A model generated the notes under the pieces. That model was not told the origin of the DNA and did not search any database. It worked only from the letters and a program-made list of their open reading frames with translations. Both the position numbers and the translations under genes were made by a program. Source: Streptomyces sp. NBC_00775 (GTDB taxonomy: Bacteria > Actinomycetota > Actinomycetes > Streptomycetales > Streptomycetaceae). Taken from it: DNA of 64,000 bases. The DNA lies in NCBI RefSeq assembly GCF_036347135.1, contig NZ_CP108938.1:2046001-2110000 (forward strand), written 5' to 3'. Below are positions 958 to 36,422 of this stretch, one piece after another; the first letter of the stretch is position 1; each line of letters opens with the position of its first letter.

Positions 958-2220
958 TCATGAGGAGACGCTGGACACGGCGGGCACGGCGGGCACGGCG
1001 GGCACGGTCCCGTGCCGGCGTATCGCGCCCGCCGCCCGGCGGGCCGCGAGCCGCTCCAGGGCCTGGAAACCGTGCGCCGCGGAGGCCAGCGTCACGTGGT
1101 GGTGCCAGCCCCGGAAGGAGCGGCCCTCGAAGTCGACGAGGCCGCACTCCTCGCGCAGCCGCCCGAGGTCGTAGCGGGAGCGCCAGCGCAGCTTCGCCGT
1201 GGAGACGAGATCGGGAAGCCGGCGCGAGCCGAGGTTGGTGACCCAGTAGGTCCGCGGCTGCGGCCGCCCGGCCGGCCATTCGACGAGGAGCTGGCGGGGC
1301 CTGCGGAAGCGGCGCTCGCCGTGCCGGACGGCCGGGCCGCCGGGGCCCGCCGGGATCTGCGCGGCGAGGAACTGCGACTGCCGCACCCGGCTCTCGACGC
1401 CTTCGCGCCAGGCGAGGGTGACGCGTGCGCTGCGGCGGCCCGCCGTGTGCATCATGTCGGCGGCCGTGCCCAGCACGACGGGCGATCCGTTCGCCGACGG
1501 GGCCGCCAGCAGCGGTGCGCCGCCGGCGACTTCGACGAGATAGCCGAGCCCGCGGGCCTCCAGCCCGTCGAGTAACGGGAGGACGTCGGGTTCGTGCCGC
1601 CAGTCGGCGAGTATCGGAGCGGGCCTGAGGTCCCACTCCTGCACCATCTCGTCAAGGCTGTGCAGCACATGCCGCCAGCGGGGCTGGTGGCGCTCGACGT
1701 CCGGCACCCGGGCCGCGCCGCGCCGCCGCTCGTCGTCGTCCCAGTGCGGCGGCATCAGCAGCCGCCAGTTCACCGGGATGCTGGCGTCCTCGGTGGCGAG
1801 GGACACGGCCAGGCCCAGTTGGCAGTTGGCGGTGCGGCCCTCGGCCGGCACGAACTGCCGGGCCACGCCCGCCGAGTGGTTGCCGTTCTTCGGGAAGACC
1901 ACCTCGTCCACCACCCAGGCATCGGGTTCGGCTGCGAGGAAGACCTGTTCGGCGAGGCGTTTACGGACATCCGTCACCTCCCAGGGACTCTGGCTCACGA
2001 ACTGTTGCAGTGACTGGGAGGCGCGGCGGCCGAGGACATGCTCGGAGATACGGGCCGGAGTCTTGCGGCCACTGGCATCGAGCAGTCCGCGCACATAGAC
2101 CTCACCCCAGCGGCGCTGGTCGGAGCGGGCGAACGGCGAGAAGAGATACGCGCAGTATTCGGAGAGACCGTCTCCCCGGCCCCGCTCCCGCGTGGCGTTC
2201 AGGTCAGCGTTCAAAGACAT
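958..2220 (-). CDS. IS701-family transposase-like protein 1
   Basis: A 420-residue DDE-superfamily protein of the IS701 type. The first acidic region reads WVVDEVVFPKNGNHSAGVAR, matching the family's D-x-x-x-x-P-K-x-G-x-H-S-x-G-V-A-R signature. The second Asp is in ILADWRHEPDV, and the region after the catalytic Glu is DFEGRSFRGWHHHVTLASAA. The family Glu before that motif appears to be Arg (RWRSRYDLGRLREECGL), so activity is doubtful. The C-terminus is a run of Val-Pro-Ala from three 9-base repeats (977-1003). No terminal inverted repeats flank it, which argues for a domesticated gene rather than a mobile element. It is a paralogue of the protein at 18866-20050. It has its own promoter-like sequence at 2250-2278. 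Confidence 0.8.
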   Translation of the reverse strand: MSLNADLNATRERGRGDGLSEYCAYLFSPFARSDQRRWGEVYVRGLLDASGRKTPARISEHVLGRRASQSLQQFVSQSPWEVTDVRKRLAEQVFLAAEPDAWVVDEVVFPKNGNHSAGVARQFVPAEGRTANCQLGLAVSLATEDASIPVNWRLLMPPHWDDDERRRGAARVPDVERHQPRWRHVLHSLDEMVQEWDLRPAPILADWRHEPDVLPLLDGLEARGLGYLVEVAGGAPLLAAPSANGSPVVLGTAADMMHTAGRRSARVTLAWREGVESRVRQSQFLAAQIPAGPGGPAVRHGERRFRRPRQLLVEWPAGRPQPRTYWVTNLGSRRLPDLVSTAKLRWRSRYDLGRLREECGLVDFEGRSFRGWHHHVTLASAAHGFQALERLAARRAAGAIRRHGTVPAVPAVPAVSSVSS

Positions 2221-2249
2221 GGAGACCCCCTGCGTGAAGCGTCAATGCT

Positions 2250-2278
2250 AGTTAACTGCGGCTGTGAAAATCTGTCAA
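2250..2278 (-). promoter_or_regulatory. Candidate promoter for IS701-like gene 1
   Basis: Read on the minus strand, TTGACA is followed after 17 bases by TTAACT, a good vegetative-sigma spacing, about 30 bases upstream of the ATG. It lies between the terminator of the preceding operon (2322-2352) and the gene, so the gene is probably transcribed separately. Confidence 0.5.
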
Positions 2279-2321
2279 GTCACCAGTAAATCAGCGGTTT
2301 TGGGGGCTGTCATACGCCAAA

Positions 2322-2352
2322 GGGCGGAGTCTCCGACCTGGAGACTCCGCCC
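2322..2352 (-). terminator. Terminator of the SnoaL/GMC operon
   Basis: A perfect 13-bp inverted repeat GGGCGGAGTCTCC/GGAGACTCCGCCC with a 5-base loop, 20 bases beyond the stop codon of the last gene of the operon. Confidence 0.75.
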
Positions 2353-2828: not shown

Positions 2829-2866
2829 GGGAAGCCTTCTTCCTCGTACGCGTGTGATCGGTCTCT

Positions 2867-4869: not shown

Positions 4870-4883
4870 GTCGGCTCCCGCCG

Positions 4884-5258: not shown

Positions 5259-5280
5259 GTGTGTCTCCCTCGGACAGGGA

Positions 5281-9143: not shown

Positions 9144-9167
9144 CCGCACAGCACAGGGTGAGGATGC

Positions 9168-9208: not shown

Positions 9209-9253
9209 AGCCGTATGTGCCGGGGCACCACCGGCCTGTCCGTACGGTACGGG

Positions 9254-22027: not shown

Positions 22028-23137
22028 CTACCGGCCGGCGCGCAGCCGCAGTTGGGTGCCCACCGTCCCTCGGAGCGCCTCCCACGAGCGGACCAACCGT
22101 TTCTCGCCATGTGCCGCGAGCCTCCCGGCGACCGCCTCGAAGCGTAGGCCGGTCCGTTCGAATTCGTCCAACACGCGCCGGGCGTCCCGTTGCCGGCCCC
22201 CGAGGGTGTCCCCGCGCGGCGTTCCCCAGCGGTCGGCGGCGAGCAGCGCGCGCAGCGGCAGGGCCAGGGCGGTGTGCCAGCCCACCAGCCGGGCCGCGTA
22301 TCCGGCCTGGTCAGGGGTGTGCGGGCCGTCCACCGTCCACATCAGGCGCTGCGGCCGGGCGCCGGCGGCGGCGAGGTCCCGCCAGCGGGCGCCGCCCAGC
22401 TGCTCGTCGTACTGCTGGTACATCAGCCGGGCGAGGGCCAGGGCGGTCTCGCCGCGCAGCGCGCCGGCTTCGGAGGTACCCAACTCGGCCAGTCGGGCGT
22501 CGCATTCGGTGTCGATGCGGCTCACCGGCGCGGACGCCAGCGAGGCGATGCCGTGCAGCGGCCGACCGGCGCGGCGGGCGATCTCGAGTCCGCCGCAGTA
22601 CGCGTCCATGACCTCGCTGTGGCGCCGGGCCGTGTAGATCTCGGTGGCGTGCACGCCGATGCCCCGGCCGACGCAGTCCCTGATGGCGGCCAGCCCTTCG
22701 ACGGTGGCCGGGATCTTCACCAGCGCGTTCGGCCGGGCGACGGCCGCGACCAGCGAGCGTGCCTCGGCGACCGTGGCGTCGGCGTCGTGGCCGAGCCCCG
22801 GATCCAGGTCCATGGAGACCAGGCCCTCGTGCCGGCCCGTGGCCTCGTAGGAAGGACCGAGGTCGTCGCAGGCCCGGCGGATGTCCTGGACCTGGAGAGC
22901 CCGCAGCGCCTCGCCAACGCCCGTGCCCTCTCCGGCGAGTTGGGCCAGTTGCCGGTGGTAGGCGGTGTCGACGGAGAGGGCAGCGGCAAGCAGGGCGGGC
23001 TGTGCGGTCATGCCCCGCACACCTTCCAGTGCGGCCAGTTCCGCCGGCCGCCGCGCCTGCAGAAATCCCCGGTGAAATCCATTCAGCCAAGGGGAAACGC
23101 CCTCCGAAACAAGACGACGCAGAATTCCGCCCCGCAT
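22028..23137 (-). CDS. tal: Divergent transaldolase
   Basis: A 369-residue transaldolase. It starts LRRLVSEGVSPWLNGFHRG, as the family does. The Schiff-base Lys is in NALVKIPATVEGL near residue 141, and HGIASLASAPVSRIDTECDA matches the conserved strand with Ser/Arg/Asp. The usual TSNPTIF motif is altered to MTAQPALLAAAL, so this is a diverged copy, not the housekeeping one. GGGAGGGG precedes the ATG at 23137. It is divergent from the DAHP synthase and may enlarge the erythrose-4-phosphate pool for it. The gene lies 40 bases beyond the PucR-like start on the same strand. Confidence 0.82.
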   Translation of the reverse strand: MRGGILRRLVSEGVSPWLNGFHRGFLQARRPAELAALEGVRGMTAQPALLAAALSVDTAYHRQLAQLAGEGTGVGEALRALQVQDIRRACDDLGPSYEATGRHEGLVSMDLDPGLGHDADATVAEARSLVAAVARPNALVKIPATVEGLAAIRDCVGRGIGVHATEIYTARRHSEVMDAYCGGLEIARRAGRPLHGIASLASAPVSRIDTECDARLAELGTSEAGALRGETALALARLMYQQYDEQLGGARWRDLAAAGARPQRLMWTVDGPHTPDQAGYAARLVGWHTALALPLRALLAADRWGTPRGDTLGGRQRDARRVLDEFERTGLRFEAVAGRLAAHGEKRLVRSWEALRGTVGTQLRLRAGR

Positions 23138-23377: not shown

Positions 23378-24550
23378 GTGGACATTGATCTGCCCAGTGT
23401 CCGATCGCGGACTGCCCTGCAGCAGCCGGATTGGGACAGGACAGAATTGATCCGTTCGGTCAGAGGGGAGTTGACGAACAGTCAGGCACTCGTCGGCCTC
23501 GACGACGTACTGGCCCTGCGCGAACTGCTCGCGCGGGTGGCCATCGGCGAGGCCCATGTGGTCCAGGCCGGTGACTGTGCCGAGGACCCCACCGAATGCA
23601 CCGCGGGCTATGTCGCCCGCAAGGCCGGTCTGCTGGACGTGCTCGCCGGCACCCTGAAGATGATCACCCATACACCCGTGGTCCGGGTCGGCCGCATGGC
23701 AGGCCAGTTCGCCAAGCCCCGCTCCCGGCCCACCGAAGTGATCGGAGGCACCGAACTCCCCGTCTACCGGGGGCACATGGTCAACAGCCCGGAGCCCGAC
23801 CCGGAGCTCCGCCGGCCCGACCCGCGTCGCCTGCTGGACGGCTACGCGGCCGCCCAGGAGGCCGTACGGCATCTCGGATGGCTGGACGACGGCCGCCCCT
23901 CCGTGATCTGCCCGCCGGTGTTCACCAGCCACGAGGCCCTGCTACTGGACTACGAACTCCCCATGGTCCGCCGGGACAAGGAGGGCGGGCTGCTGCTGAC
24001 CTCGACCCACTGGCCGTGGATCGGCGAGCGCACCCGGCAGCCGGACGGCGCCCATGTCGCCCTGCTGTCCCAGGTCGTCAACCCGGTGGCCTGCAAGGTC
24101 GGGCCCAATATGTCCGTACGCGATCTGCTGACACTGTGCGAGAAGCTCGACCCGGAGCGGGAGCCCGGACGGCTGACGCTCATCGCCCGCATGGGGGCCG
24201 ACCTGGTCTCCGAGCGGCTGCCGTCGCTGGTGTGGGCGGTGCGCGCGGCCGGTCACCCGGTCATCTGGCTCACCGATCCCATGCACGGCAACACCGTGAC
24301 AGCCCCCGACGGGCTCAAGACCCGCTTCGTGGAGACCATCGTCCGCGAGGTCGAGGGCTTCCAGTGCGCGGTGCGGACCTCCGGCGGGATCGCCGGCGGA
24401 CTGCATCTGGAGACGACTCCGGACCATGTCACGGAGTGCGTCACGGGCGTGGCCGACATCGCTCACGTGGGCGACAAGTACACGAGTTTCTGCGACCCCC
24501 GCCTCAACCCGGTCCAGGCCGCCTCCGTGGTCTCGGCCTGGCGCGGATAA
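23378..24550 (+). CDS. phzC: Type II DAHP synthase (PhzC-like)
   Basis: A 390-residue 3-deoxy-D-arabino-heptulosonate-7-phosphate synthase, joining phosphoenolpyruvate and erythrose-4-phosphate at the shikimate entry. Visible motifs are VQAGDCAEDPTE (metal Cys), VRVGRMAGQFAKPRS, LLLTSTHWPWIGERTR, WLTDPMHGNT (metal His) and GGIAGGLHLE. The GTG at 23378 is picked for GGAG nine bases ahead and because the protein then begins as PhzC proteins do (SRTALQQPDW). A dedicated, probably less feedback-inhibited copy is usual in phenazine and aminobenzoate clusters. It leads the plus-strand precursor operon. Confidence 0.92.
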   Translation: MDIDLPSVRSRTALQQPDWDRTELIRSVRGELTNSQALVGLDDVLALRELLARVAIGEAHVVQAGDCAEDPTECTAGYVARKAGLLDVLAGTLKMITHTPVVRVGRMAGQFAKPRSRPTEVIGGTELPVYRGHMVNSPEPDPELRRPDPRRLLDGYAAAQEAVRHLGWLDDGRPSVICPPVFTSHEALLLDYELPMVRRDKEGGLLLTSTHWPWIGERTRQPDGAHVALLSQVVNPVACKVGPNMSVRDLLTLCEKLDPEREPGRLTLIARMGADLVSERLPSLVWAVRAAGHPVIWLTDPMHGNTVTAPDGLKTRFVETIVREVEGFQCAVRTSGGIAGGLHLETTPDHVTECVTGVADIAHVGDKYTSFCDPRLNPVQAASVVSAWRG

Positions 24551-24572: not shown

Positions 24573-25388
24573 ATGGAGCACACGGAGCACACCGAGCACA
24601 TACAGAACCATCAGGCAAGGGAGAACAAGGTCGCCCTCGTCACGGGCGCGGCGGGCGGCATAGGAGCCGCTGTGAGCCGCGCGCTCGCCGAGCAGGGCGT
24701 GCTCGTCGCGGCCGTCGACCACAACGCCGAAGCTCTGCGCGAGTCCGTGGAGAAACTCACCGCGGACGGGCTGCGCGCCGAGGCGTTCGCCACCGACGTC
24801 AGCAGCGGCGCGGCGGTCGAGGCGACGGTCGACGCCGTCGAACGACGCCTCGGCCCGGTGGAGTACCTGGTCAACGCGGCAGGCGTGCTGCGCCTCGGCG
24901 AGGTGCGGACCTTCACCGACGAGGACTGGCAGACCACGTTCGCGGTCAATGTGAACGGCGTCTTCCACGTCAGCCGCGCGGTCGTCGACCGGATGGCGGC
25001 GCGTGGGCGCGGGGCGATCGTCACGGTCTCCTCGAACGCCGCGGCGACCCCGCGCACCGAGATGGCCGCGTACGCCGCGTCCAAGGCGGCGGCCACCATG
25101 TTCACCCGGAGCCTGGGCCTGGAGGTGGCCAAGCACGGCATCCGCTGCAACATCGTGGCGCCCGGCTCCACCGACACCCCGATGCTCAGCTCGATGTGGC
25201 ACGACGAGTCGGGCCCGCGCGGCACCGTCGAGGGCCGCGCGGACGCCTTCCGCGTGGGCATCCCGCTGGGCCGGATCGCGCAGCCCTCGCACATCGCCGA
25301 CGCCGTGATCTTCCTGCTCTCCGACCGCGCCGCGCACATCACCCTGCACATGCTCACCGTCGACGGCGGCGCGTCGCTGGGCGCCTGA
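24573..25388 (+). CDS. EntA/DhbA-like dehydrogenase, probable DHHA to 3-hydroxyanthranilate step
   Basis: A 271-residue classical SDR. It has [19 protein letters not shown] (cofactor loop), VNAAGVLR (NAG motif), a catalytic Ser in [25 protein letters not shown] with YxxxK following, and [15 protein letters not shown]. It resembles 2,3-dihydro-2,3-dihydroxybenzoate dehydrogenase. Beside PhzD and PhzE its likely substrate is trans-2,3-dihydro-3-hydroxyanthranilate, giving 3-hydroxyanthranilate, as in benzoxazole pathways. AGGGAGG precedes the ATG. The N-terminus has a short Glu-His-Thr repeat. Confidence 0.88.
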
Positions 25389-25435: not shown

Positions 25436-26062
25436 ATGGCCGGCATACCCACCATCGAGCCGTACGCGATGCCCGCGCCGGGCGAGCTGCCGCCCAACGC
25501 GGCGGCCTGGGCGGCGGACCCGGAGCGCGCGGTGCTGCTCGTCCACGACATGCAGCGCTACTTCCTCAAACCCCTGCCCGACCAGGGGCCGGGCGACGAA
25601 CTCGTCAGCAACGCCGCGCTGTTGCGGGACCGCTGCGCCGAACTCGGCGTGCCGGTCGCGTACACCGCCCAGCCCGGAGGGATGTCCGCCGGACAGCGCG
25701 GTCTGCTCGCCGACTTCTGGGGCCCGGGCATGCGGGTGGACCCCGTCGACCGCGAGGTCGTCGAGCCGCTCGCGCCCCGGGAGGGCGACTGGCTGCTCAC
25801 CAAGTGGCGCTACAGCGCCTTCTTCCGTACGGACCTGCTGGAGCGGATGCGTTCCGCGGGCCGCGACCAGCTGATCATCTGCGGTGTGTACGCGCACGTC
25901 GGCGTGCTGATCACCGCGACCGAGGCGTTCTCGCACGACATCCAGCCCTTCGTCGTCGCCGACGCGGTCGCCGACTTCTCGGCGAAGGACCATCGCACCG
26001 CACTCCACTACGCGGCCCAGCGCTGTGCCGTCGTCATCCCCGCAAAGGAGGTCTTCGCATGA
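25436..26062 (+). CDS. phzD: Isochorismatase-family PhzD (ADIC hydrolase)
   Basis: A 208-residue alpha/beta hydrolase of the isochorismatase fold, matching PhzD in length (about 207). The catalytic Asp is in [10 protein letters not shown] near residue 38 and the Lys in [14 protein letters not shown] near 121. The PhzD-typical region [19 protein letters not shown] and [16 protein letters not shown] follow. It hydrolyses the vinyl ether of 2-amino-2-deoxyisochorismate to trans-2,3-dihydro-3-hydroxyanthranilate and pyruvate. Its stop overlaps the PhzE start (ATGA), so the two are coupled. Confidence 0.93.
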
Positions 26063-27933
26063 CCGGCGCCCCGCGCGACCTGCTCGACCAGGTGCTGTCC
26101 GGGCACACGCCCGCGTACGCCCTGCTGCACCGGCCCGCGGCCACCGGCCGCTCCGCACTGGAGGTCGTCGTCGGCGAGGTGAACGAGCCGGGGACCCTGG
26201 CCGGCATTCCGCTCCCCGCCGCCGCCGCGCCCGGTCACCAGGTGCTGGCGCTGGTCCCGTACCGGCAGATCGAGGAGCGCGCATACGACGTCGCCGACGA
26301 CGGGACGCCGCTGCTCGCCATGACGGTCACCGGGCAGCAGACCCTGCCGGTGGCGGACGTACTGGCGCGCGTCCCCGATGTGCCGATCCGGCTGGCCGGC
26401 GGCCACTTCGACATCGACGACGCGACCTACGCGGACACGGTCCGCCGGATCATCAAGGAGGAGATCGGCGAGGGCGAGGGCGCGAACTTCGTCATCAAGC
26501 GGTCGTTCACCGCCGACATCACCGGCTACTCGTCGGCGAGCGCGCTGACGCTGTTCCGCCGGCTGATGGAGCAGGAGTCCGGAGCGTACTGGACCTTCCT
26601 CGTGCACACCGGGACCCGCACCCTCGTGGGGGCGAGCCCCGAGCGGCACATCAGCGTCCACGGCGGTACGGCGGTCATGAACCCGATCAGCGGCACGTAC
26701 CGCTATCCCGCCGCCGGCCCGACCCTCCCCGACGTCATGGACTTCCTCGCCGACCGCAAGGAGGCCGACGAGCTGTACATGGTCGTCGACGAGGAACTCA
26801 AGATGATGGCCCGGATCTGCGAGACGGGCGGCCGGGTGGTCGGCCCGTATCTGCGGGAGATGGCCCGGCTCGCGCACACCGAGTACTTCATCGAGGGCGA
26901 GACGGACCGCGATCCGCGCGAGATCCTGCGCGAGACACTGTTCGCGCCGACGGTCACCGGCTCTCCCCTGGAGAGCGCGGCGCGCGTCATCCGCCGGCAC
27001 GAGCCGCACGGCCGCGGCTACTACAGCGGTGTCCTGGCCCTGATCGGCCACGACGCGCAGGGCGGGCGAACCCTGGACTCCTCGATTCTGATCCGTACGG
27101 CCGACATCTCCGCCGAGGGCCGCCTGAGCATCGGCGTGGGCGCCACGCTCGTACGCCACTCCGACCCGGACTCCGAGGTCGCCGAGACGCGCGCGAAGGC
27201 GGCCGGCCTGCTCGCGGCGCTCGGCACGGAGGAGCCGACGCGGTTCGCCGAACACCCCAGCGTGCGGGGGGCGTTGGCCGCACGGAACGCGACGATCGCG
27301 GGGTTCTGGCTGGCCGAGGGTGACCGGCGTGCGCCGGTGGCGGACGCCCGCAGGGTCCTGGTCGTGGACGCCGAGGACACCTTCACCGCCATGATCGCCC
27401 ACCAACTGCGTTCCATGGGCCCGCTGGTGACGGTCCGTCGGTTCGATGAGCCGTACTCCTTCGACGACTACGACCTCGTCGTCATGGGCCCGGGCCCGGG
27501 CGACCCGCGCGATCTCACCCTCCCCAAGATCGCCCATCTGCACTCGGCCGTCCGTGAGCTGCTGGACACGCGCAAGCCGTTCCTCGCGGTCTGCCTCAGC
27601 CACCAGGTCCTCAGCCTGGAACTGGGACTCGACCTCAACCGCCGTGCCGTGCCGAACCAAGGAGTCCAGCGCGAGATCGACCTCTTCGGCCGCCACGAAC
27701 GGGTCGGCTTCTACAACACGTTCGCCGCGCGCAGTGCCGCGGACGCGGTCGACGTGCCGGGCGTGGGCGTGGTGGAGATCTGCCGGGACCCCGGCAACCG
27801 CGAGGTCCACGCCCTGCGTGGACCCGGTTTCGCGTCGATGCAGTTCCACCCGGAGTCGGTCCTCACCCAGAACGGCCCGACCGTCCTCGCCTCCCTGATC
27901 CAGCACCTCCACGCCCCCCTCCAGACCATCTGA
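26059..27933 (+). CDS. phzE: PhzE-like 2-amino-2-deoxyisochorismate synthase
   Basis: A 624-residue fusion of a chorismate-utilising domain (about 1-410) and a glutamine amidotransferase domain (about 430-620), the PhzE arrangement. The chorismate part shows [23 protein letters not shown] and [11 protein letters not shown]. The amidotransferase part shows GPGPGDPRD, the catalytic Cys in [16 protein letters not shown] (near 511) and the His/Glu in MQFHPESV (near 594). It converts chorismate and glutamine-derived ammonia to ADIC. It ends the precursor operon and is followed by a terminator. With no phzF, phzA/B or phzG nearby, the route likely stops at 3-hydroxyanthranilate. Confidence 0.95.
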
Positions 27934-27945
27934 CCCCGTCCCCAC

Positions 27946-27979: not shown

Positions 27980-27994
27980 TCACCATGCCGTTCT

Positions 27995-28295: not shown

Positions 28296-28301
28296 CAAAA
28301 A

Positions 28302-28338
28302 GGATCCGCTCCCCCAGCGCACCGGGGAGAGCGGATCC
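28302..28338 (-). terminator. Terminator after the CreD-like gene
   Basis: GGATCCGCTC/GAGCGGATCC (28302-28311 and 28329-28338) form a perfect 10-bp stem 21 bases beyond the minus-strand stop. Confidence 0.65.
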
Positions 28339-28359
28339 ATCGCTCCGTACGAACTCGGT

Positions 28360-29862
28360 CTACGCGGCCCACGAACGCAGCGCCCGGTCGACCAGAGGGC
28401 CCGCACCCCCCGTGTACCCGGCCGGATCGCACAGCACCACCAACTCCGCGGCACTGAGGAGCCGAGCAACCGACGGCTCCTCCGCAAGCACCTCGGGCAA
28501 CCCCCGCCCACTCTCGCGCACAACCCCCACCGCATCGGTCAGCACCTGCTTCGCCCGCACCTTGCCCAGCCACGGCGCGAGCACGGCGGCGATGCGCTCG
28601 GACACGATCTGAGCCCCACTGTGCGCAAGGTTCTCCCGCATGCGCCAGGGGTTGACCACCAGCCCCTTGGCCAGCTCCACAGCCGTATGGGCAGAGCCGC
28701 CCACCAGCCGCAGGCACTCCCGCAGAAGCTGCCACTCGGCATGCCAGGCACCGGCGGAGCGCTCGTCCTCGGAGAGCAGACACTGCGTCAACCCGGCGGC
28801 CATCACCGGGACTTGGAGCGCGGCGGCACGCATCAGCGTGGCGAGCACCGGGTTGCGCTTGTGCGGCATCGCCGACGAACTGCCACGGCCGGCCACCGTC
28901 GGCTCGGTGACCTCGCCGACCTCCGTCCGGGTCAGCGACTGCACGTCCACCGCGATCTTCCCCAGCGCACCGGCCGTGAAGGCCAGCACCGAGGCGACGT
29001 CCGCGATCGGCGTGCGCAGCGCGTGCCAGGGCAGCACGGCCGGCGCGAGCCCCGTCTCGGCGGCGAACGCCTCGACGAGCCGGTCGAGATAGTCGCCCGC
29101 ATCGCCGGCCACACCATCCACGCCGAAGTCACCGACGACACCGTCGTCACCGTTCAGGCGTACGTCACCGACCGTGCCCATACCCTCCGCGCCGGCGATC
29201 GCCGCGTACTCCAGATAACCCGCCAGGGTCCCCGCAGCACCCCCCAGCGACACCGGCAGCCCTCCGTCGAGCACCCGCTCGACCCGCCGTACGGCGTCGA
29301 GGACCAGCTCGCGCCACCCCGCCGCCTTGAGCCCGAAGGTCGTCGGCACGGCCTGGAGGGCCAGCGTCCGGCCCGCCATCAGGGTGTCGCGGTGCTCCAG
29401 GGCCAGGGCGCCCAGCGCGTCGGCGATCCGGGTCAGGTCGGCGCGCAGCAGCCGCAGCGCCCTGGCGGTGACCAGCATCGCCCCGGTGTCCAGGACGTCC
29501 TGGCTGGTGGAGCCCCGGTGTACGTACTCCGCCGCGCCCTCGTCCTGGGCCGCGACGGCCCGGGTGAGCGCCTGCACCAGGCCGACCACGGGGTTGGCGG
29601 TCTCCCGGGAGGCCAGCGCGAGGGCGCGTGCGTCGAAGCGGTCGGCGCGTGCCGCCCGGGTGATGATGTCCGCCGCGGGCTTCGGCACCGTCCCGAGCCG
29701 TGCCTGGGCACGGGCCAAGGCGGCCTCCGCGTCGAGCATGGCCTGAAGCCATGCCCGGTCGCAGACGGCCGCCTCGACGGGGGTACCGGCACGCACGGGG
29801 GACAGCAGACCCGAGTCGGTCAGCACGTCCGTCTCCTGGTGTGCGTCCAGTGCGTGGGTCAC
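28360..29862 (-). CDS. creD: CreD-like nitrosuccinate lyase (fumarase/aspartase superfamily)
   Basis: A 500-residue lyase of the aspartase/fumarase/carboxymuconate-cycloisomerase superfamily. The first region is VHRGSTSQDVLDT, the second LALQAVPTTFGLKAAGW, and the signature loop is RGSSSAMPHKRNPVL near residue 330. By family it eliminates a group from a succinyl moiety. Beside a CreE-like oxygenase the expected reaction is nitrosuccinate to fumarate and nitrous acid, as established for cremeomycin CreD. An odd Gly/Asp/Val-rich insertion (GDFGVDGVAGDAGDYLD) lies near residue 245. The GTG overlaps the CreE stop (GTGA). A cycloisomerase role is the alternative, but the pairing favours CreD. Confidence 0.85.
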   Translation of the reverse strand: MTHALDAHQETDVLTDSGLLSPVRAGTPVEAAVCDRAWLQAMLDAEAALARAQARLGTVPKPAADIITRAARADRFDARALALASRETANPVVGLVQALTRAVAAQDEGAAEYVHRGSTSQDVLDTGAMLVTARALRLLRADLTRIADALGALALEHRDTLMAGRTLALQAVPTTFGLKAAGWRELVLDAVRRVERVLDGGLPVSLGGAAGTLAGYLEYAAIAGAEGMGTVGDVRLNGDDGVVGDFGVDGVAGDAGDYLDRLVEAFAAETGLAPAVLPWHALRTPIADVASVLAFTAGALGKIAVDVQSLTRTEVGEVTEPTVAGRGSSSAMPHKRNPVLATLMRAAALQVPVMAAGLTQCLLSEDERSAGAWHAEWQLLRECLRLVGGSAHTAVELAKGLVVNPWRMRENLAHSGAQIVSERIAAVLAPWLGKVRAKQVLTDAVGVVRESGRGLPEVLAEEPSVARLLSAAELVVLCDPAGYTGGAGPLVDRALRSWAA

Positions 29863-31838
29863 ACGATCACTCCTGTCAGATCGGTGTCGTCGGTCACCGG
29901 CCGTACCCCGGCGGGTACTTGGGCGGCCGGGGGCAGTCCGAGGACGGCGCGGGCGATCGCGTCGGAGTCGCCCAGGGTCACCGAGTCGACGCCGGGCCGG
30001 ATACCGGCCGCGGTCACCCAGTGCACGGACTCGGTGGGCACGCCGTAGGCGAACCGGCGCGGGTGCGCCCGCCCCCGGGCGTCGAGGAGCCGGTTGGGCC
30101 GCTCGGTAACGGCGAGGCCGCCGGTCTCGTAACTCGTGCCGCAGGAGCCGTCGATCCGGAACGGGCCCGCCTGCTCTGTGTTGATCAGGTGGCTGAGCAG
30201 CGGGTCGTCGGTGCGCCGGATGTCGGGCTCGGGCAGCCGCGCCTCGATCAGTGCGGTGGCGCGGATCGGCTTACCGGGTACGGAGGTCGAGTCGGCGACG
30301 AAGACCTGGTTGAGGGTGTCCAGGCGGACCTGGGTGCCAGGGCCGGTGATCTCCAGGACGCCGGCCTCGATGAGCGCGACCATCTGCTCGATGCGGGCGG
30401 CGGGCGGGCCGATGGAGAGGAAGGCGTTGAGGGGCGTGTACCAGCCCTCCAGGTCGTCGCGGTGCGAGTTGCCCTCCAGGCCGCCGTGGTCGACGGCGAG
30501 CCGGATCTCGTTGCGCAGGTCGCGCAGGACGTCGAGGGCCGCCTTGAGCGGTCCGCTGACGTTGCCCGAACGGGCCTCCACCACGTCCTGGCGCAGATAG
30601 CCGACCAGCCACTCCTGGAAGTCCTCGCGGTCGGCGAACTTCCGCTTGCCGTAGGGCCGGGAGAGCTTCTCCCAGTCCCAGCGCTCGCCGCTGTCGATGC
30701 CGTACGAGTCGAGCAGCGCGTCCGGGCTCTCGCCCTCCCCCAGGGCGAGGTAGGCGCTCACCAGTGCCTCACGGTCGGCGTCGCGGCCCTTCGCGGAGAG
30801 CAGCGTTCCGTAGTAGACGCTCTCCACCTCACGGGAGATGTACGGCCACAGGTCGGCGGTGAAGTTGACGCGTTCGCCGTCCTCTGAGCGCTTGCGCAGG
30901 TCCTCGATGTACTGGCCGGTGAGCAGTTTCGGGTAGTAACGCCCGTACGCGCCCTTCTCGTTCTCGCCGCGCGCGTGGTACGGGACGCCGCGCCGCGAGA
31001 AGGCGTACAGCTTGGGCTCGCGGCCCGAGGGGTGGTAGACGAGCTTGCCGTCCTCCTCGGCGAAGCTGCCGCCGCGGCCCAGGGTGAAGAGGGCCATGTG
31101 GTCGAAGAAGTTGAGGCCGAGTCCGCGGATCAGAACGTTCTGGCCGGGGGCGACGGAACTGAGGTCGGCGTCGGCCGGGTTGCAGGGCGTGATGTAGGTC
31201 AGGTAGTGGATCCGGGCCAGGCTCGCGGTGCGGGCCTCGCGCGGGGTGAGGCGCGCCGGCAGGTGACCCTGCGCCAGGATGATCGCGTCGAGCTGGTTCA
31301 GCCGGGTGCCGTCCTCCAGGCGCAGGCCCTGCGGACCGCCGGGGACGCCGTGCGTGTCGGCCATGGCCACCGCGCGGGAGGAGTGCACCGTCACGGTGAC
31401 GTGCTTCGGGGCGCGGGCGACAACCCGCTTGAACGCGTCGTGCAGATAGCGGCCGTAGAAGGCGCGGCTGGGGTACGAGTCGGGGCCGAGGCGTTCGGCC
31501 TCCTCAAGGGTGTCGTTGTCGTAGCCGCCGAACTGGCCGAGCAGGGACAGGCCCTGGGCCCATTCGTACAGGCTCGGCCCGGGCTCGATGGGGCCCTCGA
31601 TCTGCGCGCTGTCGTCCGTGTAGACGGTGATCTGCGAGGCCACCGTGTTGGTGAGCAGATGCCGGGACTGCTGGGCGCGCCAGACCGCTCCGGCACCGGC
31701 CGGGGACGGGTCCACGACGTGCACGGTGACGTCCGTGTGCGTGGGCCGCTTGCGCTCGCCCGCGCACAGGCGCTCCAGTACGGACAGACCGCGCGGTCCG
31801 GCGCCCACGATGGCGACCTGGAGACGGCTGCTGCTCAT
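29859..31838 (-). CDS. creE: CreE-like FAD-dependent L-aspartate N-oxygenase
   Basis: A 659-residue FAD/NAD(P)-binding protein of the large CreE type. It opens VAIVGAGPRGLSVLERL (FAD loop), then VHVVDPSPAGAGAVWR, LLTNTVASQITVYTD and VLIRGLGLNFFDHMALFTLG (the second nucleotide site). It ends SCGTSYETGGLAVTERPNR and GIRPGVDSVTLGDSDAIARA. CreE oxidises the amino group of aspartate stepwise to nitrosuccinate, using NADPH and oxygen. Its ATG overlaps the monooxygenase stop and its own stop overlaps the CreD start, the coupling expected for two enzymes sharing a reactive intermediate. Confidence 0.88.
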   Translation of the reverse strand: MSSSRLQVAIVGAGPRGLSVLERLCAGERKRPTHTDVTVHVVDPSPAGAGAVWRAQQSRHLLTNTVASQITVYTDDSAQIEGPIEPGPSLYEWAQGLSLLGQFGGYDNDTLEEAERLGPDSYPSRAFYGRYLHDAFKRVVARAPKHVTVTVHSSRAVAMADTHGVPGGPQGLRLEDGTRLNQLDAIILAQGHLPARLTPREARTASLARIHYLTYITPCNPADADLSSVAPGQNVLIRGLGLNFFDHMALFTLGRGGSFAEEDGKLVYHPSGREPKLYAFSRRGVPYHARGENEKGAYGRYYPKLLTGQYIEDLRKRSEDGERVNFTADLWPYISREVESVYYGTLLSAKGRDADREALVSAYLALGEGESPDALLDSYGIDSGERWDWEKLSRPYGKRKFADREDFQEWLVGYLRQDVVEARSGNVSGPLKAALDVLRDLRNEIRLAVDHGGLEGNSHRDDLEGWYTPLNAFLSIGPPAARIEQMVALIEAGVLEITGPGTQVRLDTLNQVFVADSTSVPGKPIRATALIEARLPEPDIRRTDDPLLSHLINTEQAGPFRIDGSCGTSYETGGLAVTERPNRLLDARGRAHPRRFAYGVPTESVHWVTAAGIRPGVDSVTLGDSDAIARAVLGLPPAAQVPAGVRPVTDDTDLTGVIV

Positions 31839-33073
31839 TCCTGAACTCCATTCAGATTCGGGTGGGTCGAGAGGTAGGCCGGTGCGGGTGTGGTCGCGCC
31901 GAAGTCCCGGGCACCGTGCATCCAGGCCACTTGGTCGTGCAGTTGGCCGGGGGTGAGCTTGGACAGGAGTGCGTTCCTGGCGAGCGCGGCACCGCCGGAG
32001 GGGTGCCACAGTTGGGTGCTCTCGCGCGCGGCGAGCTGGATCGCGGCGGTGCGCTCACGGCGGTCGGCGGTGTACTTCTCGAAGCGCTGGGACACGTCGT
32101 CCCCGCTGCCCTCCTCCAGCAGGTCGCCGAGGTGGACGGCGTCTTCGAGGGCCTGGCAGGCGCCCTGGGCCGCGTAGTGCAGCATCGGGTGGGCGGCGTC
32201 GCCGAGGAGCGTGACGCGGCCGTCGGTCCAGGTGTCGACCGGGTCGCGGTCCACGAGCATCCAGGACCGCCAGCCCTCGCCCAGCTCGACGAGGCGCTGC
32301 GCGTCCGGCCCGAGGGCGCCGAACTGCCGTCGTACATGGGCCTTTTCGGCCGGCACGCCCGCGAAGGCACGGGTACCGCCGTCGTCCTTGCTGCCCGCGA
32401 GGTTGAGGTGCTTGCCGCCGGCGATCGGATAGTGCACGAAGTGGCAGCCGGGGCCCGTCCACCACACCACGGAGGTGTTGCGGCGCAGTTCCTCGGGCAC
32501 CCGCTCCATGGGGATGACCGCGCGGTACACGGTGATCCCGGAGACGCGCGGGTCGCCGTCGCCGACGAGCTGGGCGCGGACGGCGGAGTTGATGCCGTCG
32601 GCGCCGATCAGCGCGTCGCCCGAGACCCGTTCACCGCTTTCCAGCACGGCGGAGGCGCTCGTACGTCCTTGTTCGTAGCCGGTGACGGCGCTGCCGCCGC
32701 GCAGTTCGATGGTGTCGAAGGCCCGGCACGCGCCGAGCAGCAGGGCGTGCAGCTCGGCCCGGTGCACGACGACATAGGGGTTGCGGAACCTGCGCCGGTA
32801 CTCCTCGGTGAGCGGCAGGCTGGTCACGTGCTCGCCGCTCACGCCGTCCATGAACCGCAGTTCGTCCATGCGGACGGCCAGGGCGCGCGCCGCGCCGCCG
32901 ACGCCCAGCCGGTCCAGGGCGTGGATTCCGTTGGGCGCCAGCTGGATGCCGGCGCCGATCTCGGCGAACTCCGGCGCCCGTTCCAGGACGACGGCCCGGT
33001 GGCCGCGCTGTGCCAGGGCGAGCGCGGTGGCGAGCCCGCCGATGCCTCCGCCGGTGATGACTGTCCTGATCAT
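31835..33073 (-). CDS. FAD-dependent aromatic monooxygenase (salicylate-hydroxylase type)
   Basis: A 412-residue group A flavin monooxygenase. The FAD loop is VITGGGIGGLATALALAQRG, the DG motif is GDALIGADGINSAVRAQL, and the GD motif is VTLLGDAAHPMLHYAAQGAC. RRFRNPYVVVHRAELHALLL is typical of salicylate and 3-hydroxybenzoate hydroxylases. It likely hydroxylates, perhaps with decarboxylation, the 3-hydroxyanthranilate ring or its diazo product. ATG 33073 lies four bases beyond the ligase stop with GGGTGGGTGA ahead; GTG 33085 would overlap. Cremeomycin and related diazo clusters also carry a flavin monooxygenase. Confidence 0.87.
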   Translation of the reverse strand: MIRTVITGGGIGGLATALALAQRGHRAVVLERAPEFAEIGAGIQLAPNGIHALDRLGVGGAARALAVRMDELRFMDGVSGEHVTSLPLTEEYRRRFRNPYVVVHRAELHALLLGACRAFDTIELRGGSAVTGYEQGRTSASAVLESGERVSGDALIGADGINSAVRAQLVGDGDPRVSGITVYRAVIPMERVPEELRRNTSVVWWTGPGCHFVHYPIAGGKHLNLAGSKDDGGTRAFAGVPAEKAHVRRQFGALGPDAQRLVELGEGWRSWMLVDRDPVDTWTDGRVTLLGDAAHPMLHYAAQGACQALEDAVHLGDLLEEGSGDDVSQRFEKYTADRRERTAAIQLAARESTQLWHPSGGAALARNALLSKLTPGQLHDQVAWMHGARDFGATTPAPAYLSTHPNLNGVQE

Positions 33074-33077
33074 GTCG

Positions 33078-34646
33078 TCACCCACCCTGGTTCGTGAGCA
33101 CGCGGGCCAGTTCCAGGCGCTTGATCTTCGTGGTGGCCGTCTGCGGCAGATCGGCGAGCCGCCACTGCACGGGATCGGCCATGGCCGGCAGCCCCTCGGC
33201 CGCGGCCCGCCACGCTTCGAGATCCAGCGGTACGTCGTCCTTGGTGCACACCACGGGTACGGCCCTGCCGTCCGCGCCGGGGATGATGATGACCTCGGCG
33301 AGGTCGTCGAGCCGGGCGAACAGCCGGTCCTCGGCGGCCAGCGTGGAGCCGAAGCCCTCGATGACGTCGACCTCGCGGTCCAGCAGATGCAGACAGCCCC
33401 ACTTGGTGCGGTAGCCCACGTCTCCCATGCGCCACCAGCCGCCCTCCGACAACTGCTTGTCGTAACGCGCCTGTTCGCCGAGATAGGTGACGATGCGGCC
33501 GTCGCTCTTCACCTCGATGAACCCGGGATTGTCCTTGGACGGCGGCTGCCCGTTGCGGCTGACGACCCGTACGTCCGTCATACCGGGGAAGGGCATCCCC
33601 ACACAGCGCCCGTCGGCCTCCGCGGCCCGCCGCCTGCTGAAGGAGCGCGCGACGGCCGGCCCGATCTCGCTCTGCCCGTACAGCTGCCCGAAGACGGCCG
33701 CCCGGCGGTCCGTCGCACCCAGCAGCCGCTGTACGGTCCGCGGGTGGATGGCGTCGAACGTACTGCTGTAGAGCTTGACGTTGGACAGGGGCCGGCGCGG
33801 GTCGTCCGCCAACTCCTCCCATTTCATGAAGGAGTTGGGATGGGCCTCCAGAATTCCCGGCCGCAGCCGCGCGAAAAGTTCCCCCACATGAGCGGGGTCG
33901 GAATCGGCGAGTACGACGATGGGAAATCCGCGATGCAGTGAGATCGCGAGCGCCGTGAACAGCCGGGAGTGCACGAACGACACATGCATGGCGATCGTCT
34001 CGCGCCCCCGGATGAGCGGCGTGACGACGGAGGCCTGGGGCCGGTAACGCGCCTGCAGGGTCCGCCCGGTGTGCACGGCGAGCTTCGGTGTGCCGGTGGT
34101 GCCCGACGTGTGCGTGATGAGCGCCGGGTGCTCGGGCGGCATGGTCACCGCGGCGACGCGCTCGACTCCCTCGAACTCGCTCAGCGCGGTGGCGGCAGGG
34201 TGGCTGCCGGAGGTCAGCAGCACTCCGGACGCCAGCCCGACCACCGAGCCGGGCAGCTCCTGCTCCAGCTTCGCCTGGTCGGTCACGAGATACGGCCGGT
34301 CGGTGCGCCGCACCAGCTCGGTGACCGTCTCCCCGTCGAGCTTGGGTGACAGCAGCACCGGTACGGCGCCGACACGGGCCGTGGCACACGCCAGCAGGGT
34401 GATGTCGAATCCGTCGGACTTGTAGATGACCACGCGGTCGCCGGGCCTGACCCGTGCCGCCCACAGCCGGGACGCGAAGTCGTCGACCAGGTCGGCGACT
34501 TCGGCGACCGTGGCGCGGCGGCCGAGGCCGGGCGCGATGTCGAGATCATGGTCGAGAATCAGTATGTTCGCGGGGTGCCGGGCGGCCGCTCGCTCGAAGA
34601 GCGTCCCGAGCCGGATTCCCCGGTTTCCTATCCGTTGCAGCAACAC
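33078..34646 (-). CDS. ANL-superfamily ligase, candidate ATP-dependent diazotase
   Basis: A 522-residue complete AMP-forming enzyme. The phosphate loop is ITHTSGTTGTPKLAVHT (near 175), then QLYGQSEIGP (near 320), GGWWRMGDVGYRTKWG (near 405), LLDREVDVIEGFGS and a C-terminal Lys in TATTKIKRLEL (near 503). Homologues either form aryl-CoA or, as CreM in cremeomycin biosynthesis, activate nitrite for diazotising an aromatic amine. Location directly upstream of a monooxygenase-CreE-CreD operon supports the second role. The GTG at 34646 follows AGGAGAGGG. A 3-hydroxyanthranilate-CoA ligase or adenylating enzyme remains possible. Confidence 0.85.
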   Translation of the reverse strand: MLLQRIGNRGIRLGTLFERAAARHPANILILDHDLDIAPGLGRRATVAEVADLVDDFASRLWAARVRPGDRVVIYKSDGFDITLLACATARVGAVPVLLSPKLDGETVTELVRRTDRPYLVTDQAKLEQELPGSVVGLASGVLLTSGSHPAATALSEFEGVERVAAVTMPPEHPALITHTSGTTGTPKLAVHTGRTLQARYRPQASVVTPLIRGRETIAMHVSFVHSRLFTALAISLHRGFPIVVLADSDPAHVGELFARLRPGILEAHPNSFMKWEELADDPRRPLSNVKLYSSTFDAIHPRTVQRLLGATDRRAAVFGQLYGQSEIGPAVARSFSRRRAAEADGRCVGMPFPGMTDVRVVSRNGQPPSKDNPGFIEVKSDGRIVTYLGEQARYDKQLSEGGWWRMGDVGYRTKWGCLHLLDREVDVIEGFGSTLAAEDRLFARLDDLAEVIIIPGADGRAVPVVCTKDDVPLDLEAWRAAAEGLPAMADPVQWRLADLPQTATTKIKRLELARVLTNQGG

Positions 34647-34686
34647 GTGCTCGCCCTCTCCTACCCAGGCTTCACAGGCTCGGAAT

Positions 34687-35253
34687 TCAGCTCTTGAATT
34701 CGCTTTCGATGACGTCCTTGATGCGCTCCACGGTCGCCGCCAGATCCTTTTCCAGCTTGGCTCCCCAGTCGGCGAAGAACGCCTGCTTCCGCTCCGCGTC
34801 CATCTCCGCGGTGATCCCCCGGATTCCCTCCGTCGGGGCGCCCATCCTGAAGTGATGGACCAGTCGGCTGCCGCCGCCCTCGGCCTCGATGTCGAAGGTC
34901 CAGACGCTCTCCTGCTTCCGCCCCGTCGAGTCCTGGATCGCCCAGGAGAAGGTGACGCCGGCCTCGGCCGCGACCACCTCGGAACGGGTGCTCCACGCAC
35001 CGCGCACGACGGGGGCCCACGCGACCACGTCCTCGTCACGGTGGTTGTCACCGCGGAAGACGGCACCCACGGTGGCGGCTTCGCCCTCCACCCACTCCCC
35101 GCCGACACACTCCTCGCTCCAGTCGCCGCTGCGGCCGAGGTCGCTGACGACGGAGTAGACCTGAAGGGGCGTGGCGTCGATGTGCACGTCGGCCGCGACC
35201 TTGAACAGAGAGCTTTCCTCAACGACGTTTTCACTCACGGTCTTGTCACCCAC
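34687..35253 (-). CDS. SRPBCC (START/polyketide-cyclase-like) protein
   Basis: A 188-residue helix-grip protein. ADVHIDATPLQVYSVVSDLG is the classic SRPBCC start, followed by GDWSEECVGGEW, VVAAEAGVTFSWAIQD, and the long C-terminal helix ADWGAKLEKDLAATVERIKD. Such proteins bind hydrophobic ligands in a deep cavity and may act as cyclases, aromatases or binding proteins. GTG 35253 is preferred with GGGAG ten bases ahead; a 15-base near-repeat (GACAAGACCGTG twice) makes GTG 35238 a rival. It is the first gene of the nitrous acid operon, 40 bases before the ligase. Confidence 0.78.
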   Translation of the reverse strand: MGDKTVSENVVEESSLFKVAADVHIDATPLQVYSVVSDLGRSGDWSEECVGGEWVEGEAATVGAVFRGDNHRDEDVVAWAPVVRGAWSTRSEVVAAEAGVTFSWAIQDSTGRKQESVWTFDIEAEGGGSRLVHHFRMGAPTEGIRGITAEMDAERKQAFFADWGAKLEKDLAATVERIKDVIESEFKS

Positions 35254-35450
35254 GGTCTTGTCACTCCCGGTGTTTTCCGCTGATGCCGGAATGCTGCGCC
35301 GGCTGGAAGGCGTGAGCAAAAAGGCCTGTGAGGGTCCGTCAAGTCCAACGGTCACCGTTTCTGCGGGACTTGGAGCTTGAGGCTCGGGACTTGACGAAGA
35401 ATGCGTGGGCTTCGCGCGAGTGCCCTCCCCCGGTGGAAGAATCCAGGGCC
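35254..35450. promoter_or_regulatory. Divergent promoter with long inverted repeat
   Basis: CGTCAAGTCC (35337-35346) and GGACTTGACG (35387-35396) form a perfect 10-bp inverted repeat spaced by 40 bases, with another partial GGGACTTG between them. They stand between the nitrous acid operon and the quinone oxidoreductase gene. The half-site GACTTGAC also occurs in the promoter at 2250-2278, which suggests either a shared regulator or a shared -35 element. Confidence 0.5.
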
Positions 35451-36422
35451 ATGCGTGCCGCCTATGCCGAACAGCTCGGCCCACCCGACGTCATTCGCTA
35501 CGGACAGCTCGCCGCACCCGTGCCGGGTCCCGACGAGGTCCTCGTCGACGTACGGGCCACCACGGTCAACCCCGTGGACACCTTTGTCCGTTCAGGGGTC
35601 TTCCGTACGCCGCTGGAGTTCCCCTTCGTCATAGGCCGCGACCTGGTGGGCACGGTCGCGTCGCCCGGGGGCGGGTTCGCCGTCGGCGACGCGGTGTGGT
35701 GCAACAGCCTCGGCCACGGCGGCCGTCAGGGGGCGGCGGCCGAGCAGGCGGTGGTGCCGGTGGACCGGCTCTACCGGCTCCCGCCGGGCGTGGCTCCCGA
35801 GATCGCGGTGGCCGTGGTCCACCCGGCCGCCACCGCGTATCTCGCCCTGTTCACCCACGGCGGTCTGTGCCCGGGCGAGACGGTCCTGGTCGCCGGGGCC
35901 GCGGGCAACGTGGGCGCCGCGCTGGTGGTCCTCGCGGTGCGCGCGGGTGCCCGTGTGATCGCGACGGCGGCGGCTCGCGACCACGACTACTGCCGGAGTC
36001 TGGGGGCGGCCGAGATCGTGGACTACCGCGACCTCGACCTCACTCGCCGCCTCGCGGAGCTGGCCCCCGCCGGAGTCGACGTCCACGTCGACACCTCCGG
36101 CCGCAACGACCTCACCTCCGCCGTCGCCCTCCTCGCCCACCGCGGCCGCATCGTCCTGCTGGCCGGCGCCAAGGACGAACCCGTCCTCCCGGTCGGCCCC
36201 CTCTACATGAAGGACGCCTCCGTGCGGGGCTTCGCCATATCCCACGCCACCCCCTCGGAACTCGCCTCGGCGGCGACCACCATCAACGACCTGCTGTCCC
36301 GGGGCCTGTTGCACCCCCGCGCCATGGAGCCGCTGCCCCTCAGCACCGCCGCGGACGTCCACCACCGCATGGAACGCGGTGAACTCCACGGCAAACGGAT
36401 CGTCCTGCACACCAACTCCTGA
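35451..36422 (+). CDS. Zinc-free medium-chain (quinone oxidoreductase-like) dehydrogenase
   Basis: A 323-residue MDR-superfamily protein of the zeta-crystallin/quinone oxidoreductase group. It starts MRAAYAEQLGPPDVIRYGQL and has VNPVDTFVRSGVF, a NADPH-binding VLVAGAAGNVGAALVVLAV, and GRIVLLAGAKDEP. No catalytic-zinc Cys/His set is evident. Members reduce quinones or enones with NADPH. Divergent from the diazo operon, it could reduce a quinone-like or quinone diazide intermediate. The initiation site is weak (GGAAGA some way ahead), but the ATG is the only good choice. Confidence 0.85.
   Translation: MRAAYAEQLGPPDVIRYGQLAAPVPGPDEVLVDVRATTVNPVDTFVRSGVFRTPLEFPFVIGRDLVGTVASPGGGFAVGDAVWCNSLGHGGRQGAAAEQAVVPVDRLYRLPPGVAPEIAVAVVHPAATAYLALFTHGGLCPGETVLVAGAAGNVGAALVVLAVRAGARVIATAAARDHDYCRSLGAAEIVDYRDLDLTRRLAELAPAGVDVHVDTSGRNDLTSAVALLAHRGRIVLLAGAKDEPVLPVGPLYMKDASVRGFAISHATPSELASAATTINDLLSRGLLHPRAMEPLPLSTAADVHHRMERGELHGKRIVLHTNS

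Follow-up and report, generated by a model that had tools for sequence, protein, structure and literature searches.

A probable penzonemycin-type gene cluster of Streptomyces sp. NBC_00775 pairs predicted 3-hydroxyanthranilate genes with nitrous acid genes and a CreM-type ligase

A stretch of 64,000 nucleotides from the genome of Streptomyces sp. NBC_00775 (G000:C1:2046001-2110000 in a single-contig genome of 11.1 Mb; hereafter the window) carries, at positions 23378-36422, a compact set of ten genes that represents, with high probability, a penzonemycin-type (pzm-type) biosynthetic cluster. Four forward-strand genes, encoding PhzC-, EntA-, PhzD- and PhzE-like proteins predicted to form 3-hydroxyanthranilate (3-HAA), face a reverse-strand set encoding CreD, CreE, a flavin monooxygenase (FMO), an AMP-binding ligase (ANL1) and an SRPBCC protein, beyond which lies a forward-strand gene for a quinone reductase (QR). 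A previous sequence-only reading of this DNA had placed these genes in one cluster spanning positions 958-36422 and knew of no described cluster of such make-up. The comparison of gene content leads to the pzm cluster, which has the same core (PMC9323291). The combination is thus already described; of more interest are the FMO variant, a split second ligase and a swap of the nitrite source among relatives.

Organization of the core locus

Gene starts were taken from a codon-model script, which produced 57 gene calls in the window; the start of phzC was revised, and other starts may be off. The Pfam scan covered 40 of the 57 calls (E 0.001; a further batch at 1e-5). The core locus is intact in reading frame and coherent, with the genes for DAHP (3-deoxy-D-arabino-heptulosonate 7-phosphate) synthase, the EntA-like protein, PhzD and PhzE all together.

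The first of these (23378..24550, +) encodes a PhzC-like class II DAHP synthase of 390 amino acids (aa; PF01474), whose best solved relative is 6bmc (496 bits). Its start was set at the in-frame GTG at 23378, which is preceded by GGAG, the alternative at 23471 being too late. Homologues sharing up to 75% identity adjoin related modules. The second gene (24573..25388, +) determines an EntA/DhbA-like short-chain dehydrogenase/reductase (SDR) that exceeds the cut-off of the 2,3-dihydro-2,3-dihydroxybenzoate dehydrogenase model (TIGR04316, 347 bits; cut-off 300). The isochorismatase PhzD (25436..26062, +) matches 3r77 and 1nf9 with 307 and 304 bits, respectively, and the Asp of its LVHDMQRYF motif, together with one Lys, aligns with P. 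aeruginosa PhzD; we take these two to be the catalytic residues. The fourth gene (26059..27933, +) encodes PhzE, a predicted 2-amino-2-desoxyisochorismate (ADIC) synthase. Both its chorismate-binding (PF00425) and glutamine amidotransferase (PF00117) domains are present, and residues 3-616 give a near full-length alignment (739 bits) with 3r74, presumably the solved PhzE. PhzC is predicted to feed the shikimate pathway, and the EntA-like SDR is expected to oxidise 2,3-dihydro-3-hydroxyanthranilate (DHHA) to 3-HAA.

The spacing from the CreD to the SRPBCC gene appears operon-like, since the genes of three adjacent pairs overlap (by 4 to 8 bases) and those of the fourth are 40 bases apart. CreD (28360..29862, -), the predicted nitrosuccinate lyase responsible for nitrite release, scores 810 bits against the equivalog model NF052556 (cut-off 650) and 574 bits against the CreD structure 5xny. 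The CreE-type FAD monooxygenase (29859..31838, -; PF13454), predicted to convert aspartate to nitrosuccinate, matches 8cp2 with 683 bits; this entry, whose title says only FAD-binding protein, we take to be an aspartate N-hydroxylase. The FMO (31835..33085, -) is a single-component flavin aromatic hydroxylase nearest to 3-hydroxybenzoate 6-hydroxylase, falling narrowly under the cut-off of the 3-hydroxybenzoate 6-monooxygenase model (NF006021, 439.7 bits; cut-off 459). Its best solved relative, 4bjy (221 bits), is entered as a probable salicylate monooxygenase, and we assume it to be the 3-hydroxybenzoate 6-hydroxylase of Rhodococcus jostii. The FMO could hydroxylate para to the phenol.

ANL1 (33078..34646, -; PF00501) is presumed to be an ATP-dependent diazotase of the CreM type. 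The SGTTGxPK loop, the YGQSE motif and a C-terminal Lys, as expected for an intact adenylating enzyme, are invariant in 15 of 15 aligned relatives, and the Glu of YGQSE would be the equivalent of E352 of CreM (PMC11705231). The SRPBCC protein (34687..35253, -; PF10604) adjoins ANL1 and is the counterpart of pzm19. The QR (35451..36422, +), a quinone reductase of the medium-chain dehydrogenase/reductase (MDR) type that scores 156 bits against TIGR02824, below the cut-off of 297, corresponds to pzm13. The locus therefore shows the arrangement of a CreM homologue beside an SRPBCC protein with a quinone reductase nearby.

These family and solved-structure matches confirm what had been proposed for PhzC, PhzD, PhzE and the EntA-like dehydrogenase, as well as for CreD and CreE and, by family, for the FMO, the AMP-binding ligase, the SRPBCC protein and the MDR reductase. 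In line with the proposed lack of polyketide synthase (PKS) and nonribosomal peptide synthetase (NRPS) genes, the 40 scanned proteins gave no match to a ketosynthase, an acyltransferase or an NRPS condensation domain; they do include two AMP-binding proteins and ketoreductase-like matches of SDRs.

Comparison with known gene clusters

The pzm cluster of Streptomyces sp. SCSIO 40020 (GenBank ON345781) is assigned to the synthesis of penzonemycin, which has a 3-HAA core bearing an N-N bond that is kept in the product (PMC9323291); the cluster is also treated in a 2024 review (PMC11705231). Its published table lists a DAHP synthase, anthranilate synthase, isochorismatase, dehydrogenase, quinone reductase, CreM homologue and SRPBCC protein; the CreD and CreE homologues share 67 and 62% identity with their S. 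cremeus counterparts, and Pzm18 is 48% identical to CreM (PMC9323291). By this table, the pzm cluster and the window have in common a DAHP synthase, a PhzE-like protein, an isochorismatase, an EntA-like protein, CreD, CreE, a CreM homologue, an SRPBCC protein and a quinone reductase, whereas the FMO of the window core is absent from it (PMC9323291). In turn, no counterpart of the pzm F420 oxidoreductase or of the pzm3-type acetyltransferase was found in the window core and, unlike in pzm, no acetolactate synthase (TPP-enzyme) or acetyltransferase family, as would be needed for the hydrazone and acyl portions of penzonemycin, was detected among the 40 scanned window proteins. The locus was therefore classed as being of the same kind as pzm, and not as the penzonemycin cluster itself. 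Among the open-access papers listed, covered mostly by titles and abstracts, no described cluster with the FMO was found. The window adds an FMO-bearing relative to the pzm kind, and a compact ten-gene set for arylamine diazotisation.

The link between ANL1 and the pzm ligase was drawn through a locus of Streptomyces halstedii (L042), whose genes correspond to pzm22 through pzm12, in the same order and with nearly the same sizes (the counterparts of pzm17, pzm19 and pzm21 have 524, 124 and 118 aa versus 560, 180 and 126 aa in pzm); the sequence retrieved stops short of CreD and the 3-HAA genes. The L042 homologues of ANL1 (the pzm18-equivalent), SRPBCC, QR and CreE are 79, 62, 64 and 69% identical to those of the window, respectively. 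L042 has another ligase, the pzm17-equivalent, directly beside its pzm18-equivalent; this ligase shares 63% identity with the ANL1 of the window. In the window genome, by contrast, the second ligase (ANL2) lies at a distance, left of the window.

Three further groups of clusters share parts of this gene set. The cremeomycin cluster (cre) of Streptomyces cremeus has in common with the window the supply of nitrite by CreE/CreD and a CreM-type ligase predicted to act on an aminophenol (PMC11705231, PMC11429834), but it starts from 3-amino-4-hydroxybenzoate (3,4-AHBA) made by CreH/CreI, while the window would start from chorismate-derived 3-HAA made via PhzE/PhzD (PMC11429834). The limazepine and calcimycin clusters share the PhzE/PhzD/dehydrogenase route to 3-HAA; they were likened to the window by description, not by sequence, and the account of their routes drawn on here mentions no nitrous acid or diazotase step (cited in PMC9323291). 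The ava (avenalumic acid) and cma (p-coumaric acid) pathways likewise combine nitrous acid with an ATP-dependent diazotase in an aromatic acid pathway, but use a type II PKS and a 3,4-AHBA start (PMC10777205).

No 3,4-AHBA synthase family of the CreH/CreI type was detected among the 40 scanned proteins, the Pfam families searched being those that we assume to represent CreH and CreI. ANL1 fits the ava/cma diazotase model poorly (AvaA6, 89 bits; cut-off 975), and an AvaA7-like protein encoded outside the window reaches 288 bits against the AvaA7 model (cut-off 400).

Conservation of the gene set among related loci

Loci around ANL1 relatives were collected by scanning named genomes with an ANL alignment, and the best 79 of at least 575 candidates were analyzed. 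No locus titled S. cremeus is among these 79, and CreM is placed only through Pzm18. Many of the fetched stretches end at contig ends, which makes the absence of a gene from a stretch weak evidence; the locus counts ignore kinship, and some few loci (e.g. L061 and L064) stem from one strain or from strains that are almost identical. The control set comprised 18 loci around more distant ANL proteins.

Genes for the SRPBCC protein accompany ANL1 in 66 of the 79 loci, those for QR in 55, CreE in 41, CreD in 36 and FMO in 25 (BLAST thresholds varied between counts, giving 26 loci for FMO and 53 for QR in another). At least two 3-HAA genes were found in 22 loci and fewer than two in 57. The corresponding numbers for the 18 control loci are zero for SRPBCC, QR, at least two 3-HAA genes and nitrate reductase, and three for CreE; in one control locus (L118) a DAHP synthase (42% identity) and a PhzE-like protein (30%) are encoded, and another (L127) has a single DAHP synthase match.

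All eight scored partners (PhzE, PhzD, EntA, CreE, CreD, FMO, SRPBCC and QR), as well as a DAHP synthase, are encoded in three loci, i.e. those of Streptomyces sp. yr375 (L044), Streptomyces sp. F001 (L050) and S. aurantiacus (L052). Genome G023 has the same genes, but ANL2 and a second monooxygenase (FMO2) are encoded between PhzE and CreD, and the place of the DAHP synthase is taken by a 205-aa gene; the set is also present in G032 and, without FMO, in G005. G032 and L052 are probably one genome, as are G017 and L041, and neither pair was counted as independent. The convergent arrangement of the 3-HAA and CreD/CreE/ANL1 operons recurs in L044, L050, L052 and G005.

Thirty of the 57 loci with fewer than two nearby 3-HAA genes were taken for a genome-wide search, and 29 genomes were searched. 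A PhzE-like protein was found in all 29 (E <= 1e-60), with at least 60% identity in 25 and 58% in the other four; in 11 of the 29 the match appears, judging from contig numbering, to share a contig with the fetched stretch and to be no more than about 25 kb away from it. In a set of 61 related genomes, PhzE at a minimum of 60% identity occurs in 7/7 genomes with ANL1 at 60% or more, versus 9/54 without (Fisher p = 2.6e-5); with the NBC_00775 genome left out, the numbers are 6/6 versus 9/54 (p = 1e-4). The 60% threshold was adopted because generic fused anthranilate synthases at about 50-59% identity are widespread. On a quick FastTree of 77 ANL rows, which has long branches and was used for near neighbours and trait changes only, at least 12 changes are counted for the 3-HAA genes, 17 for the aspartate route, 14 for nitrate reductase and 7 for FMO. 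As the comparison shows, the ANL1-SRPBCC cassette is widespread in actinobacteria and tends to co-occur with the PhzE-type route to 3-HAA.

Three loci, of S. tauricus (L106), S. fumanus (L107) and Streptomyces sp. NBRC 110028 (L108), show the order PhzE-DAHP synthase-EntA-PhzD-SRPBCC-ANL1 in one run on one strand, with no CreD, CreE or nitrate reductase gene in the fetched stretches. The next gene in L106 encodes a second AMP-binding protein, and those in L107 and L108 are of like size.

Nitrite source in related loci

Genes resembling those for the nitrate/nitrite transporter NarK, the assimilatory nitrate reductase NasC and NirB-like reductases stand beside the ANL1 cassette in 28 of the 79 loci (e.g. 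L062:11707-17855, L031:16265-21406 and L059:15115-21146), and 13 of these 28 show neither CreE nor CreD in the stretch. The two proteins tested against the NasC assimilatory nitrate reductase model reached 733 and 737 bits, below its cut-off of 1100. Such loci are possibly nitrate-fed diazotase clusters, in which the nitrogen may derive from nitrate instead of aspartate. A survey of part of the literature by titles and abstracts returned no report of a dedicated nitrate reductase beside a CreM-type ligase, and a possible second nitrite source would widen the recognition of diazotase clusters.

Proposed pathway and alternative explanations

Gene identities, conservation and linkage were observed directly; the reactions at this locus, their order and the product are deduced from them. 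PhzC would raise the flux to chorismate, which PhzE would convert to ADIC; PhzD would then yield DHHA, and the EntA-like SDR 3-HAA. CreE is expected to turn aspartate into nitrosuccinate, from which CreD would free nitrite. Using ATP and nitrite, ANL1 would form an ortho-quinone diazide by diazotising an amine that is ortho to the ring hydroxyl. Before or after diazotisation, a further ring hydroxyl may be added by the FMO; QR may act on the redox state of some quinone-like intermediate, and the SRPBCC protein may work closely with ANL1. ANL2, FMO2 and an arylamine acetyltransferase, all encoded left of the window, probably participate. The product is likely to be an ortho-quinone diazide derived from 3-HAA, or a coupling or N2-loss product thereof. 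The chemistry of 3-HAA, nitrite and diazotisation previously suggested for this locus fits the core genes and equals the published penzonemycin proposal (PMC9323291).

We also considered that both nitrogens of the N-N unit might come from nitrite, an extension of the pathway that we regard as rather doubtful. One ligase together with QR would aminate C4 of 3-HAA (C-nitrosation next to the hydroxyl, followed by reduction of the quinone-oxime form by QR), and the second ligase would then diazotise the new amine. As read from the published NMR table, the N-N unit of penzonemycin is on C4 and its C2 amine is acylated, and the authors assign the C4 nitrogen to an unknown transamination (PMC9323291). 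If true, the double use of nitrite would explain this nitrogen, the two ANL ligases and the conserved quinone reductase. Two ligases of the ANL1 type are indeed encoded in the pzm-like L042, and ANL1 and ANL2 in the window genome, but only one was found in the fetched stretches of G005, L044, L050 and L052.

Several points weigh against assignment of the locus to the penzonemycin kind. An FMO is encoded in just 7 of the 22 loci that carry 3-HAA genes, and its step would therefore be optional. Three of the nearest relatives of ANL1 on the quick tree belong to loci (L031, L032 and L036) whose retrieved sequence shows no 3-HAA genes; their genomes nevertheless carry PhzE at 70-75% identity. The likeness of ANL1 to CreM has Pzm18 as its go-between, the counts take no account of kinship, and the 60% threshold was set after inspection of the data. 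The product of this strain is a prediction from genes, and the gene-to-pathway assignment of pzm is itself bioinformatic (PMC9323291).

A different fate of the diazo group, namely diazotisation-dependent deamination, seems unlikely. Here a transient diazo group would be replaced by hydride, with QR or an AvaA7-like reductase removing N2, and the resulting 3-hydroxybenzoate would be converted by the FMO to gentisate-type compounds. The closeness of the FMO to the 3-hydroxybenzoate 6-monooxygenase model and to 4bjy is consistent with such a route, as is the match of a gene 5 kb left of the window to the denitrifying-reductase model AvaA7 (288 bits); deamination of this type is the chemistry of the ava and cma pathways (PMC10777205). 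However, penzonemycin retains its N-N bond (PMC9323291). Moreover, AvaA7-like proteins are common, being encoded in 27 of the 61 genomes (E <= 1e-40) and three times in the NBC_00775 genome, where another reaches 285 bits, and homologues of the gene near the window (at least 35% identity) occur in 0/79 module loci. The AvaA7-like reductase (L019:12099-13052) was accordingly rejected as proof of deamination. A second AvaA7-like gene, 70% identical to the one near the window, is located a few kb from another AMP-binding protein gene in the same genome (G000:C1:9929982-9935948).

Still less probable is a mere adjacency of two independent functions, in which the 3-HAA genes would serve another product (a benzoxazole, a dibenzoxazepinone or a pyrrolobenzodiazepine-like block) and CreD/CreE/ANL1 would modify a different amine. 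The convergence of the two window operons would agree with this view, as would the 57 module loci that show at most one 3-HAA gene in the sequence retrieved. Against it stand the co-occurrence of ANL1 and PhzE across genomes and the recurrence of the convergent pair in L044, L050, L052 and G005; in pzm, both sets are held together and the product joins a 3-HAA core with an N-N bond (PMC9323291). A phenazine cluster, of which PhzC, PhzD and PhzE are the first enzymes, is hardly credible, as no PhzF or PhzA/PhzB family match was obtained among the 40 scanned proteins and an EntA-like dehydrogenase is encoded instead, as in the limazepine and calcimycin routes to 3-HAA (PMC9323291).

Borders of the cluster and neighbouring genes

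The left part of the window (g3-g16, 2373-18482) encodes GMC, SnoaL, VOC, major facilitator superfamily (MFS), Na-H exchanger, LtrA and epimerase-like proteins, among others. Homologues of these genes (at least 35% identity over at least 60% of the length) were found in none of the 79 ANL1 loci; below this threshold, generic exporters do appear. Homologues of g3, g6, g5, g4 and g14 (57-68% identity) are grouped in another genome (G012, locus L140), where the 18 kb examined contain no gene for ANL1, CreD, CreE or 3-HAA formation. Because of this absence and the separate clustering, the left block was rejected as part of the cluster, and it is probably unrelated to the core. A single cluster spanning 958-36422 was thus not confirmed, and the GMC, SnoaL, VOC and exporter genes, previously thought to provide further tailoring, seem to be part of a different neighbourhood. 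Genes for DDE_5 transposases are located at 958-2220 and 18866-20050.

Two of three SnoaL genes reported earlier have Pfam support, while the third (2373-2828) matched no Pfam family at E 0.001. The regions 2373-5703 and 14109-16268, with the SnoaL/GMC/VOC genes and one for a 719-aa GlcNAc-epimerase-like protein, represent a separate, uncharacterised gene set. A further AMP-binding gene in this block (8052-9143) encodes a protein of 363 aa that covers no more of the family model than its N-terminal part; in place of the THTSGTTG found in ANL1 relatives, the protein has HHAVGSRRRAQLTH. Because of this truncation and the degenerate P-loop region, it is unlikely to be a diazotase and was rejected as a third one. 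It is possibly a non-catalytic ANL remnant, and lies directly behind a gene for a DHA2-type MFS exporter (6070-8055) whose C-terminus appears to carry a TetR C-terminal domain (PF17926, residues 551-615; its 25.6 bits fall narrowly below the cut-off of 26.2).

Three genes flanking the core may be connected with it. A PucR/CdaR-type regulator (20047..21987, -; PF13556, PF17853), possibly a cluster regulator, has homologues in 9/79 loci and is also encoded beside the 3-HAA genes in G023. A transaldolase-like protein (22028..23011, -; PF00923; 3/79 loci), weakly linked to the module, could supply erythrose-4-phosphate. To the right, a histidine kinase (g30; 36704..37945, -; PF07730) is possibly a cluster sensor. 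In L044, a kinase 52% identical to it is encoded beside the module, together with a response regulator 70% identical to u16, one of the genes left of the window.

This outlying group, 10-15 kb left of the window, comprises the response regulator u16, an arylamine N-acetyltransferase (u17), ANL2 (u18), FMO2 (u19) and a flavodoxin-like reductase (u20), with u17-u19 at G000:C1:2031657-2035721. ANL2, a diazotase-like ligase 55% identical to ANL1, is encoded about 35 kb from PhzC and about 45 kb from ANL1. It shares a stretch with the module in L043, L053, L055, G023 and G009, accompanied by FMO2 in all of these except L043, where the contig breaks off at this point. In G044, u17-u18-u19-u20 follow one another in the same order, but without ANL1. 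ANL2, the monooxygenase and the acetyltransferase are probably part of the pathway, and we infer that the core and the ANL2 block are one ancestral cluster split by inserted DNA.

Between this block and the window, a gene group just left of the latter (L019:9296-13930) encodes a 3-ketoacyl-ACP synthase III (KAS III), an enoyl-CoA hydratase, an SDR, the AvaA7-like reductase and a thioesterase. Homologues of the KAS III were found in 8/79 module loci at a minimum identity of 35% and in 13/79 at a minimum of 30%.

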